Shown: positions 5,169-35,129 of the stretch, one piece after another
How the letters are laid out: each line of letters begins with the position of its first letter
Position numbering within the stretch: the first letter of the stretch is position 1
NCBI GenBank assembly: GCA_913044115.1
Contig: CAJWNO010000006.1
Span: 1-38,362 of the forward strand
Reading direction: 5' to 3'
Source: an uncultured Gammaproteobacteria bacterium
GTDB lineage: Bacteria; Pseudomonadota; Gammaproteobacteria; Magnimaribacterales; TMED112
Length of the DNA stretch: 38,362 nucleotides
Notes under the pieces: generated by a model
Seen by the model: only the letters and a program-made list of their open reading frames with translations
The model's database searches: none
Told to the model about the DNA's origin: nothing
Program-made: the position numbers and the translations under genes

Positions 5169-5966
5169 CTACTTATTTGTGCTTTCGAAGATTTTATCAG
5201 CAGATTTAGCTACGAAACCTTGGTAAAGATTACCATTTGCTTCAGGATACCTTTTTGCAAATTCATAGTAGCAACTAGGTATTTCAGCAGCATAAGAGCC
5301 AAAGTTAACTTTTACTTTATCTGCCATAGTAGATGATTGTTCAAGCAGTTCCGCAATAGATCCTTTAATTTCACCTCCAGATGAATTTAGTAAATAACCT
5401 TCATTTTTTATCATATTATTGACATCAGATAGGTCATTAAAATTAGCTAGGTGATTAACTGATACTGTGAAGTGGTTAGGGCAAAACCCCCAAACATATA
5501 GCCAAGAGGCATACTCAGACTCTTTAGCTAGCAGTTCATACTTATCATAATCTATATCCCAAGTTCTACCACCAATCAATAAATCTTCTGGATTATCAGA
5601 AAAACTATCAGATATATCATTAATTATTATGCGAAGTTCATCTGTAAAGTCTTCGCAAATTAATTCTGATAGAAAAATTTTTGGGTGCGCAGGATCAATA
5701 TTTTCCAGATGAATAGCTTGAAGTCTTTTTTGCTCGAAGAAGTAGTCACCGCAAACTTTATATCCATATGAACTAAGAAAATCTGCTTGTTTATATATAT
5801 TGCACTTATCTAAGTTAAAAGTTCTAAACGCTATATGATCATTAATAACCCTTTCACCAAAAAGTTTTGATATTTTTTCTGCTGAAGGCGTATAAGATAT
5901 ATAGCTTTCCCAAAGTCGCTGTAAAAATTTTTCTACATTCATGATATTTTTTTTGCTTTCTCCCAT
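5169..5966 (-). CDS. DUF1338 domain protein (2-oxoadipate dioxygenase/decarboxylase HglS-like superfamily)
   Basis: NDHIAFRTF near N-terminus; WGFCPNHFTVSVNHL; overall DUF1338-like layout. Confidence 0.75.
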   Translation of the reverse strand: MGESKKNIMNVEKFLQRLWESYISYTPSAEKISKLFGERVINDHIAFRTFNLDKCNIYKQADFLSSYGYKVCGDYFFEQKRLQAIHLENIDPAHPKIFLSELICEDFTDELRIIINDISDSFSDNPEDLLIGGRTWDIDYDKYELLAKESEYASWLYVWGFCPNHFTVSVNHLANFNDLSDVNNMIKNEGYLLNSSGGEIKGSIAELLEQSSTMADKVKVNFGSYAAEIPSCYYEFAKRYPEANGNLYQGFVAKSADKIFESTNK

Positions 5967-6973
5967 CCTAAGTTTGCATAAATTTTTGCTCTTTTACCCA
6001 TTTCAACTGCAAAATCGCTTGCTGCTGTGCCATCTCTAACTCTCCCAAGAATTCCCTGGCATATTCCCGCAGCTTTAAAAAGTGAAAATATTATATAAAA
6101 GTCCCATTCACTTTCTAATTCCATTTTTGTACGTGAAAGGTATAGGTCAACATATTCCTTCTCCGAATGAATTCCTAGTGATTTAGCCATATCGTCTGAT
6201 ATTTCTCCCACATGCCACAACATACAGTGATAGCCAAAGTCTGCTAATGGATCTCCTATTGTTGATAACTCCCAATCTAGCATTGCTTGTATCTCATCAT
6301 TTTCATGAAATACAACATTATCTAGCCTGTAATCACCATGCACTATTGAAGTATATTTTTGTTCAGGAGTATATTTAGGTAGCCATTCAATCAAACTATG
6401 CATAGATTCTAAAGTCTCAGTTTCAGAGTCAAAATATTGTTTAGTCCATCTGGAGACTTGTCTTTCAATATAATTACCTGGTTTACCATAATCCTCTAAA
6501 CCAATACTTTTGTAGTCTTGTGTATGTAATCGAGATATACCTAAATTCATTTGATCAAATAACATCTTCCTTCGGCTTATATCAACTTCTGAAGCGACAG
6601 GATCCCAATAAATTTTGCCATTACAGTATTCCATTAAGTAAAAAGGAGTACCAATAACATTTTCATCTTCGCATAATATTATTGTTTTTGGTGTTGGAAC
6701 GTTTGTTTTATTTAGGCCTGTTAGTACTTTAAACTCTCTATCAACTGCATGAGCTGACTTTAATAACTTTCCTGGTGGCTTTCTTCTTAGAACATATTTA
6801 TTTTCAACTGTAGTTAATAGATAAGTTGGGTTAGATTGCCCGCCTTTAAATTGCTTATAATCTTGGATTTTAGGCATACCTATGTCTTGATCATCCAAGT
6901 AAGCATTTAATGCTTCCAAGTCAAAAGTTAAATTTTCAGAAACATCTTTAGTGCCTGAGAATTGATCATTCAT
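5939..6973 (-). CDS. Phosphotransferase family protein (APH/ACAD10-like kinase)
   Basis: FKGGQSNPTYLL; VHGDYRLDNVVFH; MLDWELSTIGDPLADFGY. Confidence 0.85.
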   Translation of the reverse strand: MNDQFSGTKDVSENLTFDLEALNAYLDDQDIGMPKIQDYKQFKGGQSNPTYLLTTVENKYVLRRKPPGKLLKSAHAVDREFKVLTGLNKTNVPTPKTIILCEDENVIGTPFYLMEYCNGKIYWDPVASEVDISRRKMLFDQMNLGISRLHTQDYKSIGLEDYGKPGNYIERQVSRWTKQYFDSETETLESMHSLIEWLPKYTPEQKYTSIVHGDYRLDNVVFHENDEIQAMLDWELSTIGDPLADFGYHCMLWHVGEISDDMAKSLGIHSEKEYVDLYLSRTKMELESEWDFYIIFSLFKAAGICQGILGRVRDGTAASDFAVEMGKRAKIYANLGWEKAKKIS

Positions 6974-18370: not shown

Positions 18371-18718
18371 ATGGATATAAAAACAAAAAAAGCTACACCT
18401 TTTGATTTATCAGACAGTGCTATTGCAAAAATTTCTGTTTTAAAAGAGTCTGAGACTAATAAATTCTTTAGAGTTTACGTCACAGGCGGCGGTTGTTCAG
18501 GGTTTCAATATGGTTTTAAATTTGATGAATTTGATCAAGAGGAAGATGCAAAATTGGAATTCGATAAAGGTGTGTCAGTTGTACTAGATCACATGTCATA
18601 TCCATATATTCTTGGATCAAAGATTGATTATATTGAGAATTTGATGGGATCTAAATTTACAGTAGAAAATCCTAATGCTTCCTCTACCTGTGGTTGCGGT
18701 GCTTCATTCTCTATTTAA
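18371..18718 (+). CDS. erpA: Iron-sulfur cluster insertion A-type carrier ErpA
   Basis: RVYVTGGGCSGFQYGFKFD; ENPNASSTCGCGASFSI. Confidence 0.92.
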   Translation: MDIKTKKATPFDLSDSAIAKISVLKESETNKFFRVYVTGGGCSGFQYGFKFDEFDQEEDAKLEFDKGVSVVLDHMSYPYILGSKIDYIENLMGSKFTVENPNASSTCGCGASFSI

Positions 18719-19685
18719 ATAGCACAGCTCTTTTTTCATATGCTAGATAGGCAAAAGCAATTGCCTCAATATATTTTGAAGGAGCAATATGGTCTATTGT
18801 CTTTACTTCAACGGGTGATGCCATTGATGATATTCTTTCCATAAGATATCTATTTTCAGTACCACCTCCATGAATAACTAATTCATCAACCTGACCACAA
18901 GCTTCTATAAAATCATTGATTTTTTTAGCTGTAAGTTCTGTCAATGTACAAAGCATATCTTCTGCTGCAAGTTCATGAAGTTTAGTCTTATGTTTTTCAA
19001 AAATTCCGGTATAAACACTTATATCGTCTGCTCTTGGGTAAGATAAGCCATTCATATCCTGCAAAAATAACTGAAAAATATCAGTATTAAGATTCCCTTT
19101 GTTAGCTATATCACCATTCTTGTCATAATTACCTAAGTTAAGTGTTCGCATAGCTGCATCCATAAGGCAATTACCAGGACCAACATCTGAAGCAAGTTTT
19201 ATTTCTGATCCACAGAGGTAAGTTCCATTAGCTATACCACCGATATTAAAAATTATTTTATTTTTTGATTCTTCGCTTAATAAAAATTTATGAAAAGCTG
19301 GAATTAGCGGCGCTCCTTTGCCCCCCTTGCTAATATCAAAATTCCTAAAATCGCCATATACCGGTATTCCTAGTTCTTTTGTTAGAGCTTCTGGTGAGCC
19401 TGCTTGTAGACTAAATTCATCAGTATGAGAAATAGTCTGGCCTGGGAATGCAATTGCAACAATGTCTTCTTTAGATCTTCCTGATACTAATTTATCTACC
19501 AAAACAATACTTTTATTTGTGATCTCTTTAGATATGAAATCTTCATCCATTGATGATTGATAGTTTTCTGAAAAATTAACGGTCTGAACATCCTCAATTT
19601 TTAGACCATTCTCAAAACTTACCAAACAGCCATCTAAGCTATCTCTACTAGTGCCTGACATTAGACCAATGTATAAATTGCTCAT
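18711..19685 (-). CDS. anmK: Anhydro-N-acetylmuramic acid kinase
   Basis: YIGLMSGTSRDSLDGCLV; GDFRNFDISKGGKGAPLIPAFH; IFNIGGIANGTYL. Confidence 0.93.
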   Translation of the reverse strand: MSNLYIGLMSGTSRDSLDGCLVSFENGLKIEDVQTVNFSENYQSSMDEDFISKEITNKSIVLVDKLVSGRSKEDIVAIAFPGQTISHTDEFSLQAGSPEALTKELGIPVYGDFRNFDISKGGKGAPLIPAFHKFLLSEESKNKIIFNIGGIANGTYLCGSEIKLASDVGPGNCLMDAAMRTLNLGNYDKNGDIANKGNLNTDIFQLFLQDMNGLSYPRADDISVYTGIFEKHKTKLHELAAEDMLCTLTELTAKKINDFIEACGQVDELVIHGGGTENRYLMERISSMASPVEVKTIDHIAPSKYIEAIAFAYLAYEKRAVLFK

Positions 19686-23452: not shown

Positions 23453-25009
23453 ATGAAAAAAATTGCCTTAGTATTCTTAAGTCTGCTTAGTTTTTCAATT
23501 ATTCCGCATGACAAGTGGAGCCCAACAAAGTTATCCGAAGAAATTGCTCATGCACCGTCAGTATTGCCAGACCGAGTGGTTTTAACTTGGAACAATGACC
23601 CTGCAACTACTCAATCAGTCACATGGCGTACAGACACTTCAGTAATGGCAGGGCTTGCAGAAATAGCAGTAGCCAATGCCAATGGTAGAGCATTAAAAAC
23701 AACAGAATACAAAGCTAAAACATCTTTTTTTGAGAGCGACATCAATAAAGCTCATTACCATAACGTCACCTTTAAAAATCTTGAGCCAAATACTCTTTAT
23801 GCATACCGTGTTGGTGATGGCGAAAACTGGACTGAATACTACCACTTTAAAACTGCTAGTTTAGATGCAGAGCCATTTAGTTTTATTTATTTTGGTGATG
23901 CGCAAAATGAGGTAAAAACACATTGGTCAAGAGTCTTCAGAGAAGCATTCCGTGATGCGCCAAGAGCAGCATTTACCCTTCATGCTGGAGATCTAATTGA
24001 TGAACATTATATGGATGCTCAATGGGGAGAATGGCATCAGGCTCCAGACTGGGTTAATGGCACAATACCGGTAATTGCTACTCCAGGAAATCATGAATAC
24101 TTGAATGACTCTCAGCGTAAGAGAATTTGGAAAAACAAAAATGGTAAAGACATAAAAATAGAAATTGAGGAATATACCCAACAAGCACCAGGAGTATATA
24201 AATTAACAATTGAAGATGCAGATAAGCAGAGCGGGTCTCTAATAATTAAAGCGCCCGGTAATATTGATTCAATAGATTCAGGCATTGAATCGATAACGGG
24301 TTTTTCTGCAGCTGAGTTAGTTGGCACTGATATTCAAGGAGGTGGTGCTCCACTTTATGATCGCTTACAGAACCCAACTGGAACGCCAATTCTAAGTACG
24401 CATTGGCGACCTCAATTTTCTTTTCCTATCCAAGATGTACCAAAAGATAGTCTTAAGGAAACTGTTTATTTTATTGATTACCAAGGTGTCAGATTTATTT
24501 CATTAAACTCGAATACTGCTATGGCAGAACAAGTGCCATGGTTACAAAGGGTGCTTGAGCAAAATCCAAATCATTGGACAGTTGTGACTTTTCATCACCC
24601 AATGTACTCACCTGCTTCAGACAGAGACAATATTGAATTAAGAAAAATGTGGAAACCACTTTTTGATAAATATAGAGTCGATCTAATTCTAAGTGGACAT
24701 GATCATACTTATTCCAGAACGGGCCTTGTTGATACTAGTAATCTAAAAAATGTGCCAACCGGTTATCAGCAAGCTTATGACCCAAAAATTGGCACAGTAA
24801 ATGTAGTCTCAGTGAGTGGTCCAAAATTGTATGAAATAACAAAAGGCAAATATGCAAAAACCTTTGCAGAAAACACCCAGCTTTATCAGATCATAGATAT
24901 AGAAGGTGATAATCTTCGTTTTAGAGCTTTCACAGCAACAGGTGATCTTTACGATGAGTTCCTTCTTCAGAAAAGAACTGACAAACCCAATCTATTAATA
25001 GAGAAATAA
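23453..25009 (+). CDS. Purple-acid-phosphatase-like metallophosphoesterase with fibronectin-like N-terminal domain
   Basis: SVTWRTD; YFGDAQ; HAGDLIDEH; PGNHEY; TFHHPMYS; LSGHDHTYSRT. Confidence 0.88.
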   Translation: MKKIALVFLSLLSFSIIPHDKWSPTKLSEEIAHAPSVLPDRVVLTWNNDPATTQSVTWRTDTSVMAGLAEIAVANANGRALKTTEYKAKTSFFESDINKAHYHNVTFKNLEPNTLYAYRVGDGENWTEYYHFKTASLDAEPFSFIYFGDAQNEVKTHWSRVFREAFRDAPRAAFTLHAGDLIDEHYMDAQWGEWHQAPDWVNGTIPVIATPGNHEYLNDSQRKRIWKNKNGKDIKIEIEEYTQQAPGVYKLTIEDADKQSGSLIIKAPGNIDSIDSGIESITGFSAAELVGTDIQGGGAPLYDRLQNPTGTPILSTHWRPQFSFPIQDVPKDSLKETVYFIDYQGVRFISLNSNTAMAEQVPWLQRVLEQNPNHWTVVTFHHPMYSPASDRDNIELRKMWKPLFDKYRVDLILSGHDHTYSRTGLVDTSNLKNVPTGYQQAYDPKIGTVNVVSVSGPKLYEITKGKYAKTFAENTQLYQIIDIEGDNLRFRAFTATGDLYDEFLLQKRTDKPNLLIEK

Positions 25010-25038: not shown

Positions 25039-25045
25039 TACTTAA

Positions 25046-25126
25046 GTGCAAAGGGGAGGCTTAGCCTGAGATCTTTGATAGGAACCCTTTGAACCTGAAC
25101 CATATAGTGATGGCGGAGGAATTGCA
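25046..25126 (+). promoter_or_regulatory. TPP riboswitch (THI element)
   Basis: gtgcaaaGGGGaggcttagcCTGAGAtc...gaACCCTTTGAACCTGAacc...ggcggaGGaattgca matches the THI-box consensus; P1-P5 can be drawn by hand; sits upstream of a receptor/PnuC/kinase operon. Confidence 0.93.
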
Positions 25127-27228
25127 TGAAACACATCATAAATTATCTATATTTACTCGTTTTATTATTTGCATCTGAAATTATTCTTTCAGATGAAATT
25201 GAAGAAGTAATCGTTACAGCAGATTACAGAAGTACAGAACTCAATAAAGAGGACTCAAGTATTTTTGTTCTAGATGCAGAAGAGATTAAAACTCAACCAA
25301 TAAAGCATTTTGAAAATCTTTCATATTTAGTCCCAAATTTGAATTTTGCTGCAAGTGATTCGCGGGCAAGATACTTTCAGATCCGAGGAATTGGTGAAAG
25401 ATCAGGGTATTTGGGTACACCAAATACTTCAGTAGGTTTTCTGATTGACGATGTTGATTATTCTGGACAAGCAGGCATTGCTACTACCTTTGATGTTGAG
25501 CAAATAGAAATATTTAATGGTCCACAAGGTTCAAGAATTGGAGCAAACGCTCTAGCAGGTCTTATATATATCAAAACAAAAGATCCAACTGATGAATTTG
25601 AAGGCACTTCAGAAATCACCTATGGAAATTACAATACACTAAGCACTGGCTTAGCATTTGGCGGCCCATTAACTGAAAGCAAAAACATTAAATTTAGGCT
25701 TGCTTTAAGAAAAGATAATACAGACGGGTTTAGAGAAAATTTATATTTAAATAGGTCTGATACCTCTAGGAAAGACGAGACAACAGCAAGATTAAAAATC
25801 GATTTTGAGCTTGATAATAAAACTAATGCCAAAGTCTTGCTGAGCCAAGTCGATATGGATGATCCAGCAGATATCTGGACGATTGATGGCTCTTTGAATA
25901 CGCTTTCCGATCGCCCTGGAATGGACTCTCAAAAGACTGATACATTTGGTTTAAAAGTGATAAGGGCTAACAGGTACAACCAGTTTGAAAGTTTAACCAG
26001 TACAACTGATACAGATGTAGTTTTTAGTTATGACGCAGATTGGGGTAACGCTGATTCACACGCACCCTATACGTATGATTATTTTTCTGAAACTTTGAGA
26101 GCAAGAGAATCTTTTAGCCAAGAATTTAGATTTGTTTCCAATGAAAAATACAAAGCAGAACGTCTACCTTTTGACTGGGTCGTTGGTGTTTCATACTTAA
26201 AGCTAGATGAAACAAATGATCGACAAGATGACGGCATTTATGGAGATCCAAATGATCCATTTTCACCTTATACAAGCTTAACCACCTCAAAGAGTGACTA
26301 CAGTTCAACTAATATTTCTATTTTTGGAAATATTGATTACGAATTCTCTGCTTTTACAAAATTAAGTATAGGCCTAAGAATGGAGGATTGGTCAGCAAAA
26401 TATTTTGATTCTAATAATGAAAGATTTAGTCCTTCAGATAACATGATGGGTGGAAAAGTTTCACTCATACATTCGTTTAAGGAGGGCATGAATATTTTTA
26501 CTAATTATGCCAAAGGTTATAAGCAAGGGGGCTTTAATGTTGGTCTTGGTTTACTCGATAGCACGACGAGTTCTGATTTGGAGTACGATCCTGAATTCTT
26601 AACTAATTATGAAATAGGAATGGATCTTTCAATTTCAGACCAGACAGATCTTAGAATTGTTGGATTTTATTCAGAGAGAACAGATCAACAAGTTTTAATA
26701 TCTACGCAAGTCGACCCCAATGATCCAAACACGTTTGTCTTTCTTACACAAAATGCAGCCGAGGGAGAAAACTACGGATTTGAGTTAAATTTAAACTCAG
26801 ATATATCTAATAGCTTAGATGTTTTTGTAAATTTAGGTTTATTAAATACAGAAATAAAAAGCTGGGAATCTAGGCCTGAAATACAAGGTAGAGAACAAGC
26901 TCATGCTCCAAGTAATTCTTATTCATTTGGTTTAAATTACAGACCAACGTCTAAAACTTATTTAAATCTTCATGCTACTGGAAAGAGTGGTTTTTATTAT
27001 TCAGATTCTCACAATAATAAATCAGATTCGTACACCTTAGTAAATACAAGTTTTGGTTATACCCAGGGAGATTGGGTTGTGGAGTTATGGGTGAGAAACT
27101 TATTTGATGAATACTACGCAACTAGAGGATTCTTTTTTGGCAACGAAGCACCAAATTTTGAAGATACATTGTATGAAAGGCATGGAGACCCACGTCACTT
27201 AGGTCTTTCAGTTAGATATGATTTCTAA
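25126..27228 (+). CDS. TonB-dependent outer-membrane receptor, predicted thiamine/B1-related
   Basis: EEVIVTADYRSTELN; IRGIGERSG; GPQGSRIGANALAGLIYIKT plug motif; C-terminal LGLSVRYDF; TPP riboswitch leader. Confidence 0.9.
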   Translation: MKHIINYLYLLVLLFASEIILSDEIEEVIVTADYRSTELNKEDSSIFVLDAEEIKTQPIKHFENLSYLVPNLNFAASDSRARYFQIRGIGERSGYLGTPNTSVGFLIDDVDYSGQAGIATTFDVEQIEIFNGPQGSRIGANALAGLIYIKTKDPTDEFEGTSEITYGNYNTLSTGLAFGGPLTESKNIKFRLALRKDNTDGFRENLYLNRSDTSRKDETTARLKIDFELDNKTNAKVLLSQVDMDDPADIWTIDGSLNTLSDRPGMDSQKTDTFGLKVIRANRYNQFESLTSTTDTDVVFSYDADWGNADSHAPYTYDYFSETLRARESFSQEFRFVSNEKYKAERLPFDWVVGVSYLKLDETNDRQDDGIYGDPNDPFSPYTSLTTSKSDYSSTNISIFGNIDYEFSAFTKLSIGLRMEDWSAKYFDSNNERFSPSDNMMGGKVSLIHSFKEGMNIFTNYAKGYKQGGFNVGLGLLDSTTSSDLEYDPEFLTNYEIGMDLSISDQTDLRIVGFYSERTDQQVLISTQVDPNDPNTFVFLTQNAAEGENYGFELNLNSDISNSLDVFVNLGLLNTEIKSWESRPEIQGREQAHAPSNSYSFGLNYRPTSKTYLNLHATGKSGFYYSDSHNNKSDSYTLVNTSFGYTQGDWVVELWVRNLFDEYYATRGFFFGNEAPNFEDTLYERHGDPRHLGLSVRYDF

Positions 27229-27805
27229 TTTTTTTATAGAAAATTGGTTTGAAATTGTAGCTGCACTTCTTGCTATCTCTTATTTATTTCTAGCTATGCG
27301 CCAAGATGCTAAGTGCTGGGTAGCTTGGATCTTAAGTTCGCTTATGTATCTTTTTGTCATGTATTCTGCTGGCCTATACATGGAAGCAGCATTGCAAATT
27401 TTTTATTTAATTATTGGCTTTTATGGCCTCTATGAATGGAAATATGCACATAACACAAAAGCACAACTAACTATAAAAATTTGGTCATTTAGGAAGCATA
27501 GTTTAGTTTTATCTTTCCTCTTTTTTCTTGTTATTTCATCGGGCTATATTTTGGCTAATAATACTAATGCTGCATCACCCTATGTAGATGCATTTACTAC
27601 ATGGGGAGCGATTATTGCATCTTACATGGTCGCCAAAAAAATATTAGAGAACTGGATTTATTGGTTTGTTATAGATTTTGTTTCTGTTTTCTTATTCATA
27701 TCTAGAGAACTTTACCCAACTGCGCTTTTATTTATTGTTTATTTGATTTTAGTAGTTTTTGGTTACAGATCTTGGAAAAGGGAGTGGCAGCTAAAACATG
27801 GGTGA
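27218..27805 (+). CDS. pnuT: PnuC-family transporter, predicted thiamine permease (PnuT-like)
   Basis: Multi-TM; FYGLYEWKY; ENWIYWFVIDFVSVFLFISRELYPTALLFIVYLILVVFGYRSW; overlaps receptor and kinase genes. Confidence 0.85.
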   Translation: MISNFFIENWFEIVAALLAISYLFLAMRQDAKCWVAWILSSLMYLFVMYSAGLYMEAALQIFYLIIGFYGLYEWKYAHNTKAQLTIKIWSFRKHSLVLSFLFFLVISSGYILANNTNAASPYVDAFTTWGAIIASYMVAKKILENWIYWFVIDFVSVFLFISRELYPTALLFIVYLILVVFGYRSWKREWQLKHG

Positions 27806-28511
27806 ACTAATTTTTATTGAGCAAATTAAAAAAACAAAGTTATCACTAATAAATCTCTGTACGTTTAAGGGTCAAAAAGTAATATCCAAGAATAAAACGC
27901 TCTTCCCTTTCACTAATAACCTTAATGCCGAACTTGCGATACATACTAAACTTGCTAAGGAAAAATTATGCCCAGAAATTATTGATTTTGATAAGAAAAA
28001 AAATTTAATTATCTATGAATATTTAGAAGGCACTAATGATATTTCTAATTTAGATGAAAAATTCTTATCTAAGCTGGGTAGAACTCTAAAAAGATTTCAT
28101 CAAGCAAGCATTCAAGACGCAAAAATTAGCACTTTTAAGGAGAAGATAGGAATGTATAAAGAAATTTTAATTAATTCTTCTGATGCAGCTGTTAAAGCGG
28201 GTTTTGAGTTATTTGATCGACTATATGAAGATAGTGAAGATTTTGTATTTTGTCATAATGACATTAATGCTTCTAATATTTTTTATAACAATGATATAAA
28301 ACTTATAGACTGGGAATACGCAGGTTTTAATCTTCCAATTTATGATATTGCTTCAGTCTCATCGGTGTTTAATTTGGATGACTACCAGTTATCTATTCTC
28401 ATGGATTCTTATAATAGCAATCTAGATATAAGCTCAATAAAAAATTTTGAGTTACTTAATTCTATGGTTGAGTATATCTGGCTCCAAGCCTTAAAGATTT
28501 CAGATTCATAA
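27798..28511 (+). CDS. APH/choline-kinase-fold phosphotransferase, predicted thiamine kinase (ThiK-like)
   Basis: FCHNDINASNIFYNNDIKLIDWEYAGFNLPIYDIAS; last gene of the riboswitch operon. Confidence 0.75.
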   Translation: MGELIFIEQIKKTKLSLINLCTFKGQKVISKNKTLFPFTNNLNAELAIHTKLAKEKLCPEIIDFDKKKNLIIYEYLEGTNDISNLDEKFLSKLGRTLKRFHQASIQDAKISTFKEKIGMYKEILINSSDAAVKAGFELFDRLYEDSEDFVFCHNDINASNIFYNNDIKLIDWEYAGFNLPIYDIASVSSVFNLDDYQLSILMDSYNSNLDISSIKNFELLNSMVEYIWLQALKISDS

Positions 28512-30445: not shown

Positions 30446-33022
30446 ATGAAAAAATCTTTTTTCATCTTCTTTATCTGCCTTTTATCTCAAGGTTATTCAG
30501 CACTTTACGCTAATGAAACTGAAGAGGTTGTTGTAACAGGTACATTATTAAAAGATGTTGAGTCTGATAGTTCTCCTGTTGAGCAAATAACTAGTGATGA
30601 TTTTGATGATCTAAATGTTAATAATATTGCTGAAATAACTAAGTACTTAAACAGCACTTCAGGATCACATTTTCAAACAAATGCTTTAGATGGCATTGAT
30701 CAAGGTATGAGCAACATAACTTTAAGAGGCTTAGATCATGCATCAACATTATTGCTCATAAATTCAAAGAGACATACCTTTGCTGGTACTCCTTCTGATG
30801 AAGGAGAAGGCTATATTGATGCAAACATAATCCCAGAAATAGCTTTTGAGAAAATTGAGATTCTAAAGGAGGGTGCTACTTCAATATATGGCTCAGATGC
30901 TGTTGCTGGTGTAGTGAACTTTTTGACCTATAAAAAATATGATGGCTTTAAAATTAGGTTTGGTGATCAAAGTACAGAGAATTACAACAATAAAGAAACC
31001 ACCTTTGGCTTAATTTTTGGCACCGAATTGCTTGGTTTTGATATGGTATTTGGTTACAACCAATTAGATAGATCGCCATTATCAGCAGCTGAAATTCCAG
31101 GGATTGCTGAGCTAGCTTTAAGCTCTTTAGGAAACACATTTATTGTCTCAGAAGCTGATCAAATAGATACAGGAATATATGCTGGAAGTTATGCCGCTGG
31201 AGAAGTCGTTCCTGACCCAAATTGCGAACTTAATGGTGGAGTTCTAGATGGATTTTGCAAATTTCTATATGGAACAAGATTTAATATCTTTAATGACGAG
31301 AATCACTCTAAATTTTATTTCAATCTTGCAAATAATAATCACAATTTAACATTAATTAATTCGAATGTTTCAGTTAACGACAATCCACAATCACCTTCCT
31401 ATCCGGCATTGCCATTCTTATCTAGATCCATTAATCCTGGCGAAGGAGGCAGTCCATTTAATGTGCCAGTTAAGTGGTATGGTAGACCATTAGGAGCTAG
31501 ATATGCTTCACCTATATCACCTAAAGATATTTCCCAATTTCATTTAAGCTACAGCTACTTTATCTCGCTAAATGATTTTGATGTAGATTTCTCTTTAACT
31601 ACGAGTGAGCATAGCAATGATCACAATAGGCCTGATATTATCGACTCTCGTTTTCAAGACGCATTAATAGGCCAAGGTGGCCCAAATGGTGATCAGACAT
31701 GGAATATTTTTATTCCAACTGAAAATTCACCAGAGCTTGTCGATTATGTAAGAGGAGCTGAAATATCCCAGAAAGTAGGAGATTTAACCACAATTGATGT
31801 GTTGGCTAGGTCTTCAATAAATGATTTTGATTACGTCTTAGGCCTTCAGTTAAATAATGAAAATCTTGATATTAAATATAACGATCTAGCACGAGCTGAA
31901 TTTGATCAAGACGGAAAAATAACTAAGACAGCAGATCTATTTTTTCTAGGTGGTGGAAAAAATGTTGGCGAAAGTAGAAATAAATATGCTGCCTTTATAG
32001 AGGGAGAACAACAATTTTTTAATTCTTTAGATTTTCGTATAGCTGCAAGGTATGAGTCATCAGACAACTTTTCTTCTCTTGATCCAAAGCTATCGCTTAA
32101 ATATAAACCATTTGATAATTTAGCTATTAGAGCATCTAAAGGAACTTCATTTGCAATGCCATCTATGGCGCAGATGTTTTCCAGTGACATAAATCTTGGC
32201 AGTGTAAGAGATCAAGATGCAAATATATTTGTAAGACAAGCGAGGATAGGTAATCCAGACCTAGAGCCTGCAACTGCTGTAAATTCGAATTTAGGAGTAA
32301 TTTTTAAAACAGATTTCAATAGATTAACCCTTGATTATTGGGAGATTGAATACGAAGACAGAGTGGTAGCACAAAGCGCTCAAGCCTTACTTCAGTCAGA
32401 TCCTCAAGGACCAAGTATTACAAGAAATACAGATGGTGACCTTATAGCAGTAACAACTACATATTTTAATGAAGAGACAACCGAGCTATCAGGCATTGAT
32501 TTAAGTTATGAACATTATATTGATTTAGATACTAATGGACTTCTGGATTTACGTTTAAAAGCAACTTCCTTTATTGAATTTTTAACACCTAATACTTCAT
32601 CAGATTCATCAAGTGAATTAATAAATCGTGTTGGTAAATTTAACTTTGATGCCAATACCCACTCTGTACCTAGAAATAGAATTAATGCATTTCTAAAATG
32701 GAAGTATAAGGATTATCAAACTGCCTTAAATGCCCGTTACATTAGTGGCTACAGGAATGATAGAACTATCCCAGAAAGTGCTTTAAATCTTGGTTATAGC
32801 AATAAGGTAAGCTCTCACCTAGTGTTCGATCTTTCTTTTGAAACACCAATTGGCATTTTATTTAATAATGTTAGCTTGGATGGAAAATTTGCTTTAGTTA
32901 ACCTATTCGATGAAAGTGCGCCAAGACTTTATGATGCTCCTGATTTTAGCTTTGACACAAGAACACATGACCCAAGAGGCAGAATGTTAAGCATTCAATT
33001 TGAGCTTGGACTTTTAGATTAA
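30446..33022 (+). CDS. TonB-dependent receptor, substrate unknown
   Basis: NETEEVVVTGTLLKDVESDSSPVEQIT; LRGLDHASTLLLINSKRH; ILKEGATSIYGSDAVAGVVNFLT. Confidence 0.9.
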   Translation: MKKSFFIFFICLLSQGYSALYANETEEVVVTGTLLKDVESDSSPVEQITSDDFDDLNVNNIAEITKYLNSTSGSHFQTNALDGIDQGMSNITLRGLDHASTLLLINSKRHTFAGTPSDEGEGYIDANIIPEIAFEKIEILKEGATSIYGSDAVAGVVNFLTYKKYDGFKIRFGDQSTENYNNKETTFGLIFGTELLGFDMVFGYNQLDRSPLSAAEIPGIAELALSSLGNTFIVSEADQIDTGIYAGSYAAGEVVPDPNCELNGGVLDGFCKFLYGTRFNIFNDENHSKFYFNLANNNHNLTLINSNVSVNDNPQSPSYPALPFLSRSINPGEGGSPFNVPVKWYGRPLGARYASPISPKDISQFHLSYSYFISLNDFDVDFSLTTSEHSNDHNRPDIIDSRFQDALIGQGGPNGDQTWNIFIPTENSPELVDYVRGAEISQKVGDLTTIDVLARSSINDFDYVLGLQLNNENLDIKYNDLARAEFDQDGKITKTADLFFLGGGKNVGESRNKYAAFIEGEQQFFNSLDFRIAARYESSDNFSSLDPKLSLKYKPFDNLAIRASKGTSFAMPSMAQMFSSDINLGSVRDQDANIFVRQARIGNPDLEPATAVNSNLGVIFKTDFNRLTLDYWEIEYEDRVVAQSAQALLQSDPQGPSITRNTDGDLIAVTTTYFNEETTELSGIDLSYEHYIDLDTNGLLDLRLKATSFIEFLTPNTSSDSSSELINRVGKFNFDANTHSVPRNRINAFLKWKYKDYQTALNARYISGYRNDRTIPESALNLGYSNKVSSHLVFDLSFETPIGILFNNVSLDGKFALVNLFDESAPRLYDAPDFSFDTRTHDPRGRMLSIQFELGLLD

Positions 33023-33061: not shown

Positions 33062-33877
33062 ATGAAGAAACACTTTATTGCACTAATTTTCCTTTCTTTT
33101 TTAAGCCACACTGAGATTAAAGAACATCAGGGGCTGCTAGCAACTTTGTTTGTGCAAAGTTCTGCTGAGTTCTATACAAATTCAGTCAGTGTTTATAAAG
33201 CTGCAGAATATCAGCTTGAATCAGCAGTCAAAGATGTGAGCTATTCAGCAGCAATTGAGCAAACAAAAGATTTTAGTGGTAAACCACCAGCTGTCATTCT
33301 GGATGTAGATCAAACAGTTTTGGATAACATCCCTTTTCAGGCTAGGAAAATTATGGATAGGTCTTTTTACCCAGATGGCTGGGATGAGTGGTGTATGGAA
33401 GAAAAAGCAACTTACATACCAGGTGTTGAAGATTTTCTCGCTAGAGCAGCTGAGTTGGGAGTAGAAGTATTTTTTGTAACCAATAGAACTGCTAATTTAG
33501 AAGAAGCTACAAAAAATAATCTTGAGAAATTAGGCTTTAAGTTTGCTAAAAAAATAGACCAGCTCTTGATGAGGTATGAAAGGGAAGAATGGGGCTCTAA
33601 CAAAAATACTAGAAGACAACACGTAGCTAAAGACTACAGAATTGTCATGATGATTGGAGATAACCTGGGTGACTTCGTAGATGATGAGGAAAACAGTTCT
33701 TCTCCGGACATTAGAATGGCAGCTGCAGAAAGATATTATGATATGTGGGGTAAATATTGGTTCATGCTTGCAAATCCAACTTATGGAGACTGGGAAGGTG
33801 CTTTAATTGATTTCAAATATGAAATTCCTAAATCAGAACAGCTTCAAATTAAATCCCAAGCACTAGATGTCAAATAA
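33062..33877 (+). CDS. HAD acid phosphatase / 5'-nucleotidase, e(P4)-like family
   Basis: PPAVILDVDQTVLDNIPFQARKI; FFVTNRT; MMIGDNLGDF. Confidence 0.88.
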   Translation: MKKHFIALIFLSFLSHTEIKEHQGLLATLFVQSSAEFYTNSVSVYKAAEYQLESAVKDVSYSAAIEQTKDFSGKPPAVILDVDQTVLDNIPFQARKIMDRSFYPDGWDEWCMEEKATYIPGVEDFLARAAELGVEVFFVTNRTANLEEATKNNLEKLGFKFAKKIDQLLMRYEREEWGSNKNTRRQHVAKDYRIVMMIGDNLGDFVDDEENSSSPDIRMAAAERYYDMWGKYWFMLANPTYGDWEGALIDFKYEIPKSEQLQIKSQALDVK

Positions 33878-35129
33878 GAGCAATTTTATTTTTCCATCAA
33901 TATCAAAAAATACTATCTTTTCAGGATTATTCTTCTTTTTCGTTCTCTTATCACTTTTTGTGCTAAGACCATTTAGACAGACCATTGCTGCTGATATAGG
34001 GACAGCAGATTTAACCTTTTTCTTATTTCTTGTAGTAATAGTGATGCTGTTGGTGAACCCAATCTATTCATATATGGTTTCAAGAATTAATCAAAGAAGA
34101 ATTGTTCTGTACATATATGGATTTTTCATCATTAATCTAATTGGGTTTCTAATTTCTTATACAATTTTTCCTTCGAGTTTTGCTGTCAAAGCAATTTTTT
34201 ACGTTTGGTACAATATTTTTAACTTTTTTCTAGTTGCAATTTTTTGGGCGATCACAGTAAATTCATTCAACATAGAGGGAGGCAAAAAATTCTTTGGTCT
34301 CATTAGTGCATGTGGCTCATTAGGTGCGGCATTTGGTGGGTTTCTTGTAGACTCTTACTTATACGATAAGCAGAATCTCTCTCTCGTCATAACTGTTATT
34401 ACTTTATCCCTTGCCATTTTTTTCTCATCTAAAGTTGAGAGAGAAGAGGTCAAACTAAGAGACAATAAATCTAGCGCTGTTGATGATATCTTCGAACAAT
34501 TTAAACAGATTAAACAAAATCCAATCATACGAAGTTTTGTTCTTTATGCTTTTACTTGGACCTGTTTATCAACAGCACTATGGTTTTTCCAATTAGAATT
34601 AGTCAATAGTTATACCGATGACTCAGCCATTAAAACTAGAGTATTTGGAAGGGCTGATTCAATTGTGCCAATAGTTACATTAGTCATTCAGTTGCTTTTT
34701 ACTTCATGGATCCTTAGATCAAGATTCTTAGGTATAAGATTCGTGTTAACTGTTTATGGGTTTTTATTCGCCTTAGGTTTTCTAGCAATTTCTGGCTATT
34801 TCTCAGAGTATCTTTTAAGCACAACTGGTCTGATGTTATTTTTAGTCCTCCAAGGAACAATGAGGCCATTTGAATATGGATTAAATAAGCCTGCAAGAGA
34901 AGCGGTTTTCACAACTCTTTCTTCAAAAGAAAAATATAAATCAACAGTATTCATCGATACATTCACAAACAGGTTTGGGGATGCTACTGGCGGTTTCTTA
35001 TTCAATTCACTGTTCTCCTTTGGTCTGGTGCTCTACACAGCTCCATTGGCAATAATACCTTTAGCACTATTCTTAATTGGGCTTGGTTGGAATATTTCTG
35101 GCAGTATCGAAAAAGGTAAAGCAGCGTAA
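33867..35129 (+). CDS. MFS-like multi-TM transporter (NTP/NDP exchanger-related group)
   Basis: About 12 TM segments; FVLRPFRQTIAADIGT; overlaps the phosphatase gene. Confidence 0.7.
   Translation: MSNKSNFIFPSISKNTIFSGLFFFFVLLSLFVLRPFRQTIAADIGTADLTFFLFLVVIVMLLVNPIYSYMVSRINQRRIVLYIYGFFIINLIGFLISYTIFPSSFAVKAIFYVWYNIFNFFLVAIFWAITVNSFNIEGGKKFFGLISACGSLGAAFGGFLVDSYLYDKQNLSLVITVITLSLAIFFSSKVEREEVKLRDNKSSAVDDIFEQFKQIKQNPIIRSFVLYAFTWTCLSTALWFFQLELVNSYTDDSAIKTRVFGRADSIVPIVTLVIQLLFTSWILRSRFLGIRFVLTVYGFLFALGFLAISGYFSEYLLSTTGLMLFLVLQGTMRPFEYGLNKPAREAVFTTLSSKEKYKSTVFIDTFTNRFGDATGGFLFNSLFSFGLVLYTAPLAIIPLALFLIGLGWNISGSIEKGKAA

Follow-up and report, generated by a model that had tools for sequence, protein, structure and literature searches.

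The closest described counterpart of the locus considered here is found in gut Bacteroidetes, where the genes OMthi, pnuT and tnr3 mostly form one operon controlled by a TPP riboswitch, and where growth phenotypes are on record for both the receptor and PnuT (PMC5613172). PnuT is cited as a transporter of thiamine (PMC7749635, PMC5613172), and the specificity of PnuC-like proteins is predictable from the riboswitch class, according to a paper on the pnuC motif (PMC7749635); the Shewanella woodyi PnuT, cited in that paper, is likewise a thiamine transporter of the PnuC family, to which the permease described below also belongs. As to SAR86, one study reports for two of its clusters that omr1, a TonB receptor gene, lies close to a TPP riboswitch, and calls SAR86 B1 auxotrophic (PMC10881298), and transcription of gammaproteobacterial omr1 has been reported from the Baltic (PMC12442306). 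Receptor-PnuT operons under TPP riboswitches are already known from Bacteroidetes, and for SAR86 the vicinity of a TonB receptor gene to such a riboswitch is on record; no earlier description of a receptor-PnuT-kinase operon in SAR86 was found in a literature search that covered few subscription journals.

The window, that is, the whole stretch of 38,362 nucleotides that was analysed, is contig C6 of a 742-kb genome bin (83% complete) of a marine bacterium of the SAR86 lineage. Open reading frames and Pfam searches reveal three genes downstream of a TPP riboswitch, namely those for a TonB-dependent receptor, a PnuC-family permease and a kinase of the APH fold (Table 1). The receptor and PnuC genes overlap by 11 nt (27218-27228) and the PnuC and kinase genes by 8 nt (27798-27805), exactly as an earlier note on this DNA had put it, and the THI-box leader that the note had placed ahead of the three genes is borne out by a full-length Infernal match to the Rfam TPP model (RF00059, cmscan; 59.9 bits, E 1.8e-9, model positions 1-105), which exceeds the gathering score of 54.3 bits and supports control of the operon by TPP. 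This copy is the sole TPP element of the 742-kb bin. The next gene, which codes for GAPDH, begins 115 nt after the kinase gene; since a sigma-70-like site ahead of it scores within the range of shuffles, the assignment of the operon end rests on this gap and on the changed neighbours in relatives.

Table 1. Features of the putative thiamine-uptake operon and of its leader (positions in the window)
Feature	Position	Strand	Basis
TPP riboswitch aptamer (THI element); functional core 25047-25126	25042..25138	+	RF00059; compensatory changes in relatives
P1 5' strand UGCAA, pairs with 25122-25126 (UUGCA)	25047..25051	+	Rfam match structure, pair counts
Shine-Dalgarno GGAGG, 6 nt ahead of AUG 25126	25115..25119	+	sequence
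TonB-dependent receptor, 700 aa, predicted Omr1/OMthi-like by role	25126..27228	+	Pfam barrel and plug
PnuC-family inner-membrane permease, 195 aa, predicted PnuT-like	27218..27805	+	PF04973, AlphaFold, motif
APH/choline-kinase-fold small-molecule kinase, 237 aa, predicted thiamine kinase	27798..28511	+	PF01636, AlphaFold, motifs

Common to this locus and to OMthi-pnuT-tnr3 are the TPP riboswitch, the TonB-dependent receptor with PnuT, a phosphorylating enzyme within the operon and, as predicted here, the uptake of intact thiamine. The difference lies in the enzyme: whereas Bacteroidetes employ tnr3 (named thiamine pyrophosphorylase in the respective paper, with the role of a pyrophosphokinase), the SAR86 bacterium has an APH-fold kinase with ThiL acting downstream. 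The omr1 of SAR86 metagenome-assembled genomes (MAGs) shares with our receptor the clade, the receptor role and the riboswitch association; PnuT and the operon kinase are not named in the accessible part of that study (PMC10881298), to which the present analysis adds the operon, its exclusion with ThiE and the layout of the switch.

As regards this layout, the start codon of the receptor gene lies inside the riboswitch, so that switch and gene overlap: the 3' strand of P1 (25122-25126) takes in the A of the AUG, which closes the helix, and the AGG of the Shine-Dalgarno sequence (25117-25119) constitutes the 3' strand of P4, where it pairs with CCU at 25094-25096. P4 is present in the minimum-free-energy fold as well and is invariant in all 29 aligned SAR86-type copies (27 from the survey of the order and two from named loci), among which P1 shows changes from CG to UA. 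Across these copies, 99.5% of the helix cells are paired, five pairs are altered on both sides, and the covariation score was reached by none of 500 shuffles. In 28 of the copies, the last letters of the element are GCGGAGGAAUURCAU (R standing for G or A), and the remaining copy has GCGGAGGGAUGGCGU there. Eight copies from outside SAR86 have GCGUAGG in place of GCGGAGG, and their AUG is found 48-50 nt beyond the element, except in Pseudomaricurvus (5 nt). The leader contains no terminator-like site, and its minimum-free-energy fold is no more stable than those of shuffles (z -0.43), which is why leader stability is left out of the evidence; no SAR86-type switch turned up in a scan of viral contigs. 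To judge from the letters, the SAR86 switch has no separate expression platform, as in nearly all SAR86 copies P4 contains the Shine-Dalgarno sequence and P1 the start codon, and, in the simplest reading, the folded aptamer would directly occlude the ribosome site. A limited literature search, in itself weak evidence, returned no earlier description of a TPP riboswitch with a Shine-Dalgarno sequence and a start codon embedded in the aptamer.

The gene order receptor-PnuC-kinase is kept in nine more kinase-bearing genomes of the genus besides the source window, and in the remaining ones the contig ends within the receptor gene (G004) or the operon is split across contig ends (G010). Among 80 named loci from a search with the PnuC alignment, a receptor gene stands upstream in nearly all and a kinase gene downstream in most, but not in family f2 (f2 and, further below, g5 are family and genus labels of the genome survey). 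Outside SAR86, a TPP riboswitch precedes the receptor gene at eight loci, in records labelled Lysobacterales, Xanthomonadales, Proteobacteria or other Gammaproteobacteria and in Pseudomaricurvus alcaniphilus; two of the eight (L163 and L168) lack a kinase match, and the TPP-controlled receptor-permease-kinase operon is found in Lysobacterales-labelled MAGs and in Pseudomaricurvus. At L111 and L155, some 250 nt lie between the receptor and PnuC genes and about 70 and 166 nt between those of PnuC and kinase, whereas the genes overlap or are closely packed elsewhere. The same SAR86 operon, with a PnuC that is 64% identical, is also present in L098 (NYXO01000058.1), whose title, 'Euryarchaeota archaeon isolate ARS96', probably reflects a mis-binned or mislabelled contig.

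The distribution of thiamine pathway genes was surveyed in 101 genomes of the order and 21 genomes of the genus, with completeness of 60-97%, so that single absences are weak evidence, which does not hold for the overall pattern. ThiL, which converts TMP to TPP, is matched in 99 of the 101 genomes, an upper count because some of the weaker matches are a paralogue (86 matches exceed the curated cut-off); in the source genome, it is a partial match of 129 bits where a contig ends (G000:C13:44-484). The catalytic domain of thiamine pyrophosphokinase (TPK, PF04263) was found in none of the 101 genomes; among 14 reference genomes, 7 gave a positive control. Where ThiL is present and both ThiE and TPK are missing, thiamine is usable only if something makes TMP, so that a kinase yielding TMP would be required of importers. 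Within the genus, the kinase is present in 12 of the 21 genomes and PnuC is confined to these, while strong matches to ThiE (above 60 bits) and ThiG (above 270 bits) occur together in the same nine genomes, which are exactly those without kinase and PnuC. Such a perfect split would arise by chance with a probability of 3.4e-6 among independent genomes, a premise that does not hold here; on a tree of a GAPDH paralogue that comprises 17 genomes and leaves out G002, the kinase versus ThiE/ThiG label requires three changes, at least two of them forced by well-supported branches, so that the exclusion does not reflect one split between clades. ThiC is found in 28 genomes of the order and in none of the 21 of the genus. 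Throughout the order, 55 genomes with a TPP switch or the kinase and 43 genomes with ThiE or ThiC show no overlap, and three genomes have neither. The nine ThiE/ThiG genomes of the genus (G003, G005, G006, G009, G013, G014, G016, G018 and G020) contain neither ThiC nor a TPP riboswitch and are predicted to draw on external pyrimidine (HMP) instead of intact B1.

The kinase genomes of the genus, then, have kept ThiL and are devoid of ThiC, ThiG and ThiE, which supports the dependence on external B1 that had been suggested for this lineage; by its gene content, the source bacterium is a B1 auxotroph that has lost the synthesis of the vitamin. It could still be argued that the operon imports a precursor or breakdown product (HMP, thiazole alcohol or carboxythiazole) and that the kinase phosphorylates this compound and not thiamine, inasmuch as TPP riboswitches also govern precursor salvage (PMC3766115), related marine bacteria import HMP (PMC8269220), and the substrates of APH-fold kinases are varied. 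The joining of precursors, however, needs ThiE, an enzyme that all 12 kinase genomes of the genus lack, as do all 55 importers of the order, and neither ThiG nor ThiC is there to help in the kinase genomes of the genus, so that this explanation appears very unlikely and uptake of intact thiamine is to be preferred.

The receptor matches the TonB-receptor barrel (PF00593, 2.6e-27) and the Plug domain (PF07715, 7.7e-12) and, among NCBIfam models, is best described by generic siderophore-receptor models. The permease belongs to the NMN_transporter/PnuC family (PF04973, 1.2e-46) and receives the NCBIfam name 'nicotinamide riboside transporter'; its AlphaFold model (pLDDT 90.6) has seven helices, and in the PDB nothing but two chains of PnuC 4QTN matches it significantly (TM 0.70-0.71). 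Taken at face value, these names would suit a receptor and a PnuC that serve some other nutrient, such as a siderophore or nicotinamide riboside, next to an incidental TPP element. Such a coincidence is highly improbable, considering that the TPP element is found directly upstream in SAR86, where a receptor orthologue follows it in the relatives too, as well as in the Lysobacterales-labelled MAGs and in Pseudomaricurvus, that the presence of the operon tracks the loss of ThiE/ThiG, and that the permease displays an invariant W146-x2-W149-x3-D153, with WxxWxxxD in all copies of two alignments, whereas 4QTN has WxxWxxxN. The aspartate of this motif may be a marker of thiamine specificity. The PnuC fold, the TPP element upstream and the conserved gene pair thus support the PnuT-like permease paired with a receptor that the earlier note had envisaged; the permease would have thiamine as its substrate, and the receptor, by analogy with Omr1 and OMthi, would take thiamine up across the outer membrane. 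PnuT reportedly works by facilitated diffusion, as the title of a 2018 paper by Jaehme and co-workers claims.

The identity of the kinase is less straightforward. It matches the Pfam families APH (PF01636, 2.1e-15) and Choline_kinase (6.6e-12), and E. coli ThiK also matches APH and then Choline_kinase, the latter below its cut-off. Its NCBIfam scores, 65.2 bits for GntI and 52.9 bits for ThiK, are both far below cut-off, and the cut-off of the ThiK equivalog (TIGR02721, 299.45 bits) was passed in none of the 185 genomes surveyed in the class. All 26 kinases of an extended alignment match the GntI and ThiK models (the best ThiK score is due to E. coli ThiK itself being a member), and H153, D155, N160 and D171, which belong to APH-type catalytic motifs, are invariant in this set; HNDxNxxN and DWEYA are conserved in the operon kinases. 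A profile comparison with E. coli ThiK gives a weak match that spans 188 columns and the catalytic motifs. The AlphaFold model (pLDDT 93.5) has the LicA choline kinases 4r77, 4r7b and 4r78 as its nearest solved structures (TM 0.74-0.80, about 18% identity), and ThiK is absent among its solved-structure matches. With E. coli ThiK (YcfN), the kinase shares the APH fold, the HxDxxxxN and DWEYA motifs and, presumably, the conversion of thiamine to TMP that feeds ThiL; it differs in sequence (19% identity in the aligned set, and a score far from the equivalog cut-off) and in context, the ThiK gene of E. coli K-12 not being located beside a receptor or permease of the operon's kind. The kinase is therefore, by its scores, not a curated ThiK, and of the epithet 'ThiK-like' the fold and the predicted reaction stand but the family membership does not; the enzyme probably works like ThiK, the reaction being deduced from the pathway, and orthology to ThiK goes beyond the evidence.

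Grouping with choline kinases, which the earlier note had named as a refutation, is indeed what sequence and structure indicate, yet it is a weak objection because E. coli ThiK also matches both Pfam models and no ThiK is found among the structure matches. The kinase could, nevertheless, be a hitchhiking choline/ethanolamine or other small-alcohol kinase, with thiamine phosphorylated by another enzyme, and the operons of family f2, which keep all but an adjacent kinase gene, fit such a view. We consider it improbable, since several lineages have the kinase gene next after PnuC in operons headed by a TPP element, since the kinase excludes ThiE exactly in the genus, and since TPK is missing from all 101 genomes, which also supports the use of a kinase other than a pyrophosphokinase. 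Unlike LicA-type enzymes, the operon kinase stands in the context of thiamine, not choline, and it is this context, with ThiL kept, TPK absent and ThiE lost in exactly the kinase genomes, that decides for thiamine as the predicted substrate.

A riboswitch but no strong match to the kinase was seen in 21 surveyed genomes of family f2, and the eight such loci that were examined (L065, L067-L070 and L073-L075) comprise riboswitch, receptor and PnuC but no kinase. ThiE and TPK are missing from the switch genomes of this family too, leaving no recognisable TMP-making step there, so that the kinase was either replaced by something unseen or is not indispensable. Weak APH-kinase candidates of 294-297 aa occur in g5 of this family; at L171, such a candidate lies beside genes of 271 and 275 aa that, by eye, resemble panB and panC. 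APH matches of 327-330 aa, considered as unlinked thiamine kinases of family f2, were rejected as unrelated proteins that look ACAD10/11-like by eye.

Several other genes of the window deserve mention. Some 32 nt separate the riboswitch from the end of a purple acid phosphatase gene (23453-25009), which several close relatives share, and a second TonB-dependent receptor gene (858 aa, 30446-33022) has the gene for an acid phosphatase of class-B type (33062-33877) behind it; judged from position alone, both enzymes could release thiamine from its phosphates outside the cytoplasm. Together with this phosphatase and a protein that resembles MFS transporters (below cut-off), both encoded at 33062-35129, the second receptor seems to form a further cluster for the uptake of nutrients. 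Two more kinases, encoded at 5939-6973 and 18711-19685, are a strong match to the APH family (164 bits) and an AnmK anhydro-MurNAc kinase; they possibly take part in AmgK-like recycling of cell-wall sugars and are probably unrelated to the thiamine kinase.

The riboswitch, the gene order, the protein families, the presence of ThiL, the absence of TPK and ThiC, and the exclusion with ThiE/ThiG are established directly, and they make it probable that the operon serves, under repression by TPP, to take up and trap intact thiamine in a SAR86 bacterium auxotrophic for B1. The substrates, the facilitated diffusion, the kinase reaction and the translational control can be envisaged as follows. When TPP is scarce, the leader would leave the Shine-Dalgarno sequence and the AUG free, and the three overlapping genes would be translated together. 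The receptor would take up scarce thiamine across the outer membrane, thiamine would pass the inner membrane through the PnuT-like permease by facilitated diffusion, the kinase would trap it as TMP, and the chromosomally encoded ThiL would convert TMP to TPP, which would fold the aptamer, with P4 taking up the Shine-Dalgarno sequence and P1 the start codon, so that both are buried. What counts against this scenario is that the kinase scores slightly higher with GntI than with ThiK and has choline kinases as its nearest structures, that family f2 operons have no kinase, and that the receptor fits siderophore models. The route of import and trapping from the outer membrane to the cytoplasm that the earlier note had proposed is, thus, largely supported, apart from the membership of its kinase in the ThiK family. 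We would give even chances to a broader proposal, namely that the operon kinases make up a separate, undescribed family of thiamine kinases, non-orthologous to E. coli ThiK and recurring in TPP-controlled receptor-PnuT operons of Gammaproteobacteria, that the SAR86 switch is a single module with the Shine-Dalgarno sequence and start codon in the aptamer, and that SAR86 lineages repeatedly swap the operon for ThiE/ThiG and vice versa.

SAR86 bacteria are among the most abundant bacteria of the surface ocean. What is new here is most likely a gammaproteobacterial variant of the Bacteroidetes system with a different kinase; current annotation would make this kinase a 'phosphotransferase' or 'choline kinase', and it names the PnuC a nicotinamide riboside transporter. 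Whereas the acquisition of B1 by SAR86 previously rested on a receptor near a riboswitch, there is now a complete, testable predicted route across both membranes to TPP. Moreover, the related SAR86 genomes of our sample have the import operon or ThiE/ThiG but in no case the two together, so that sequence separates predicted consumers of intact B1 from predicted users of its precursors.
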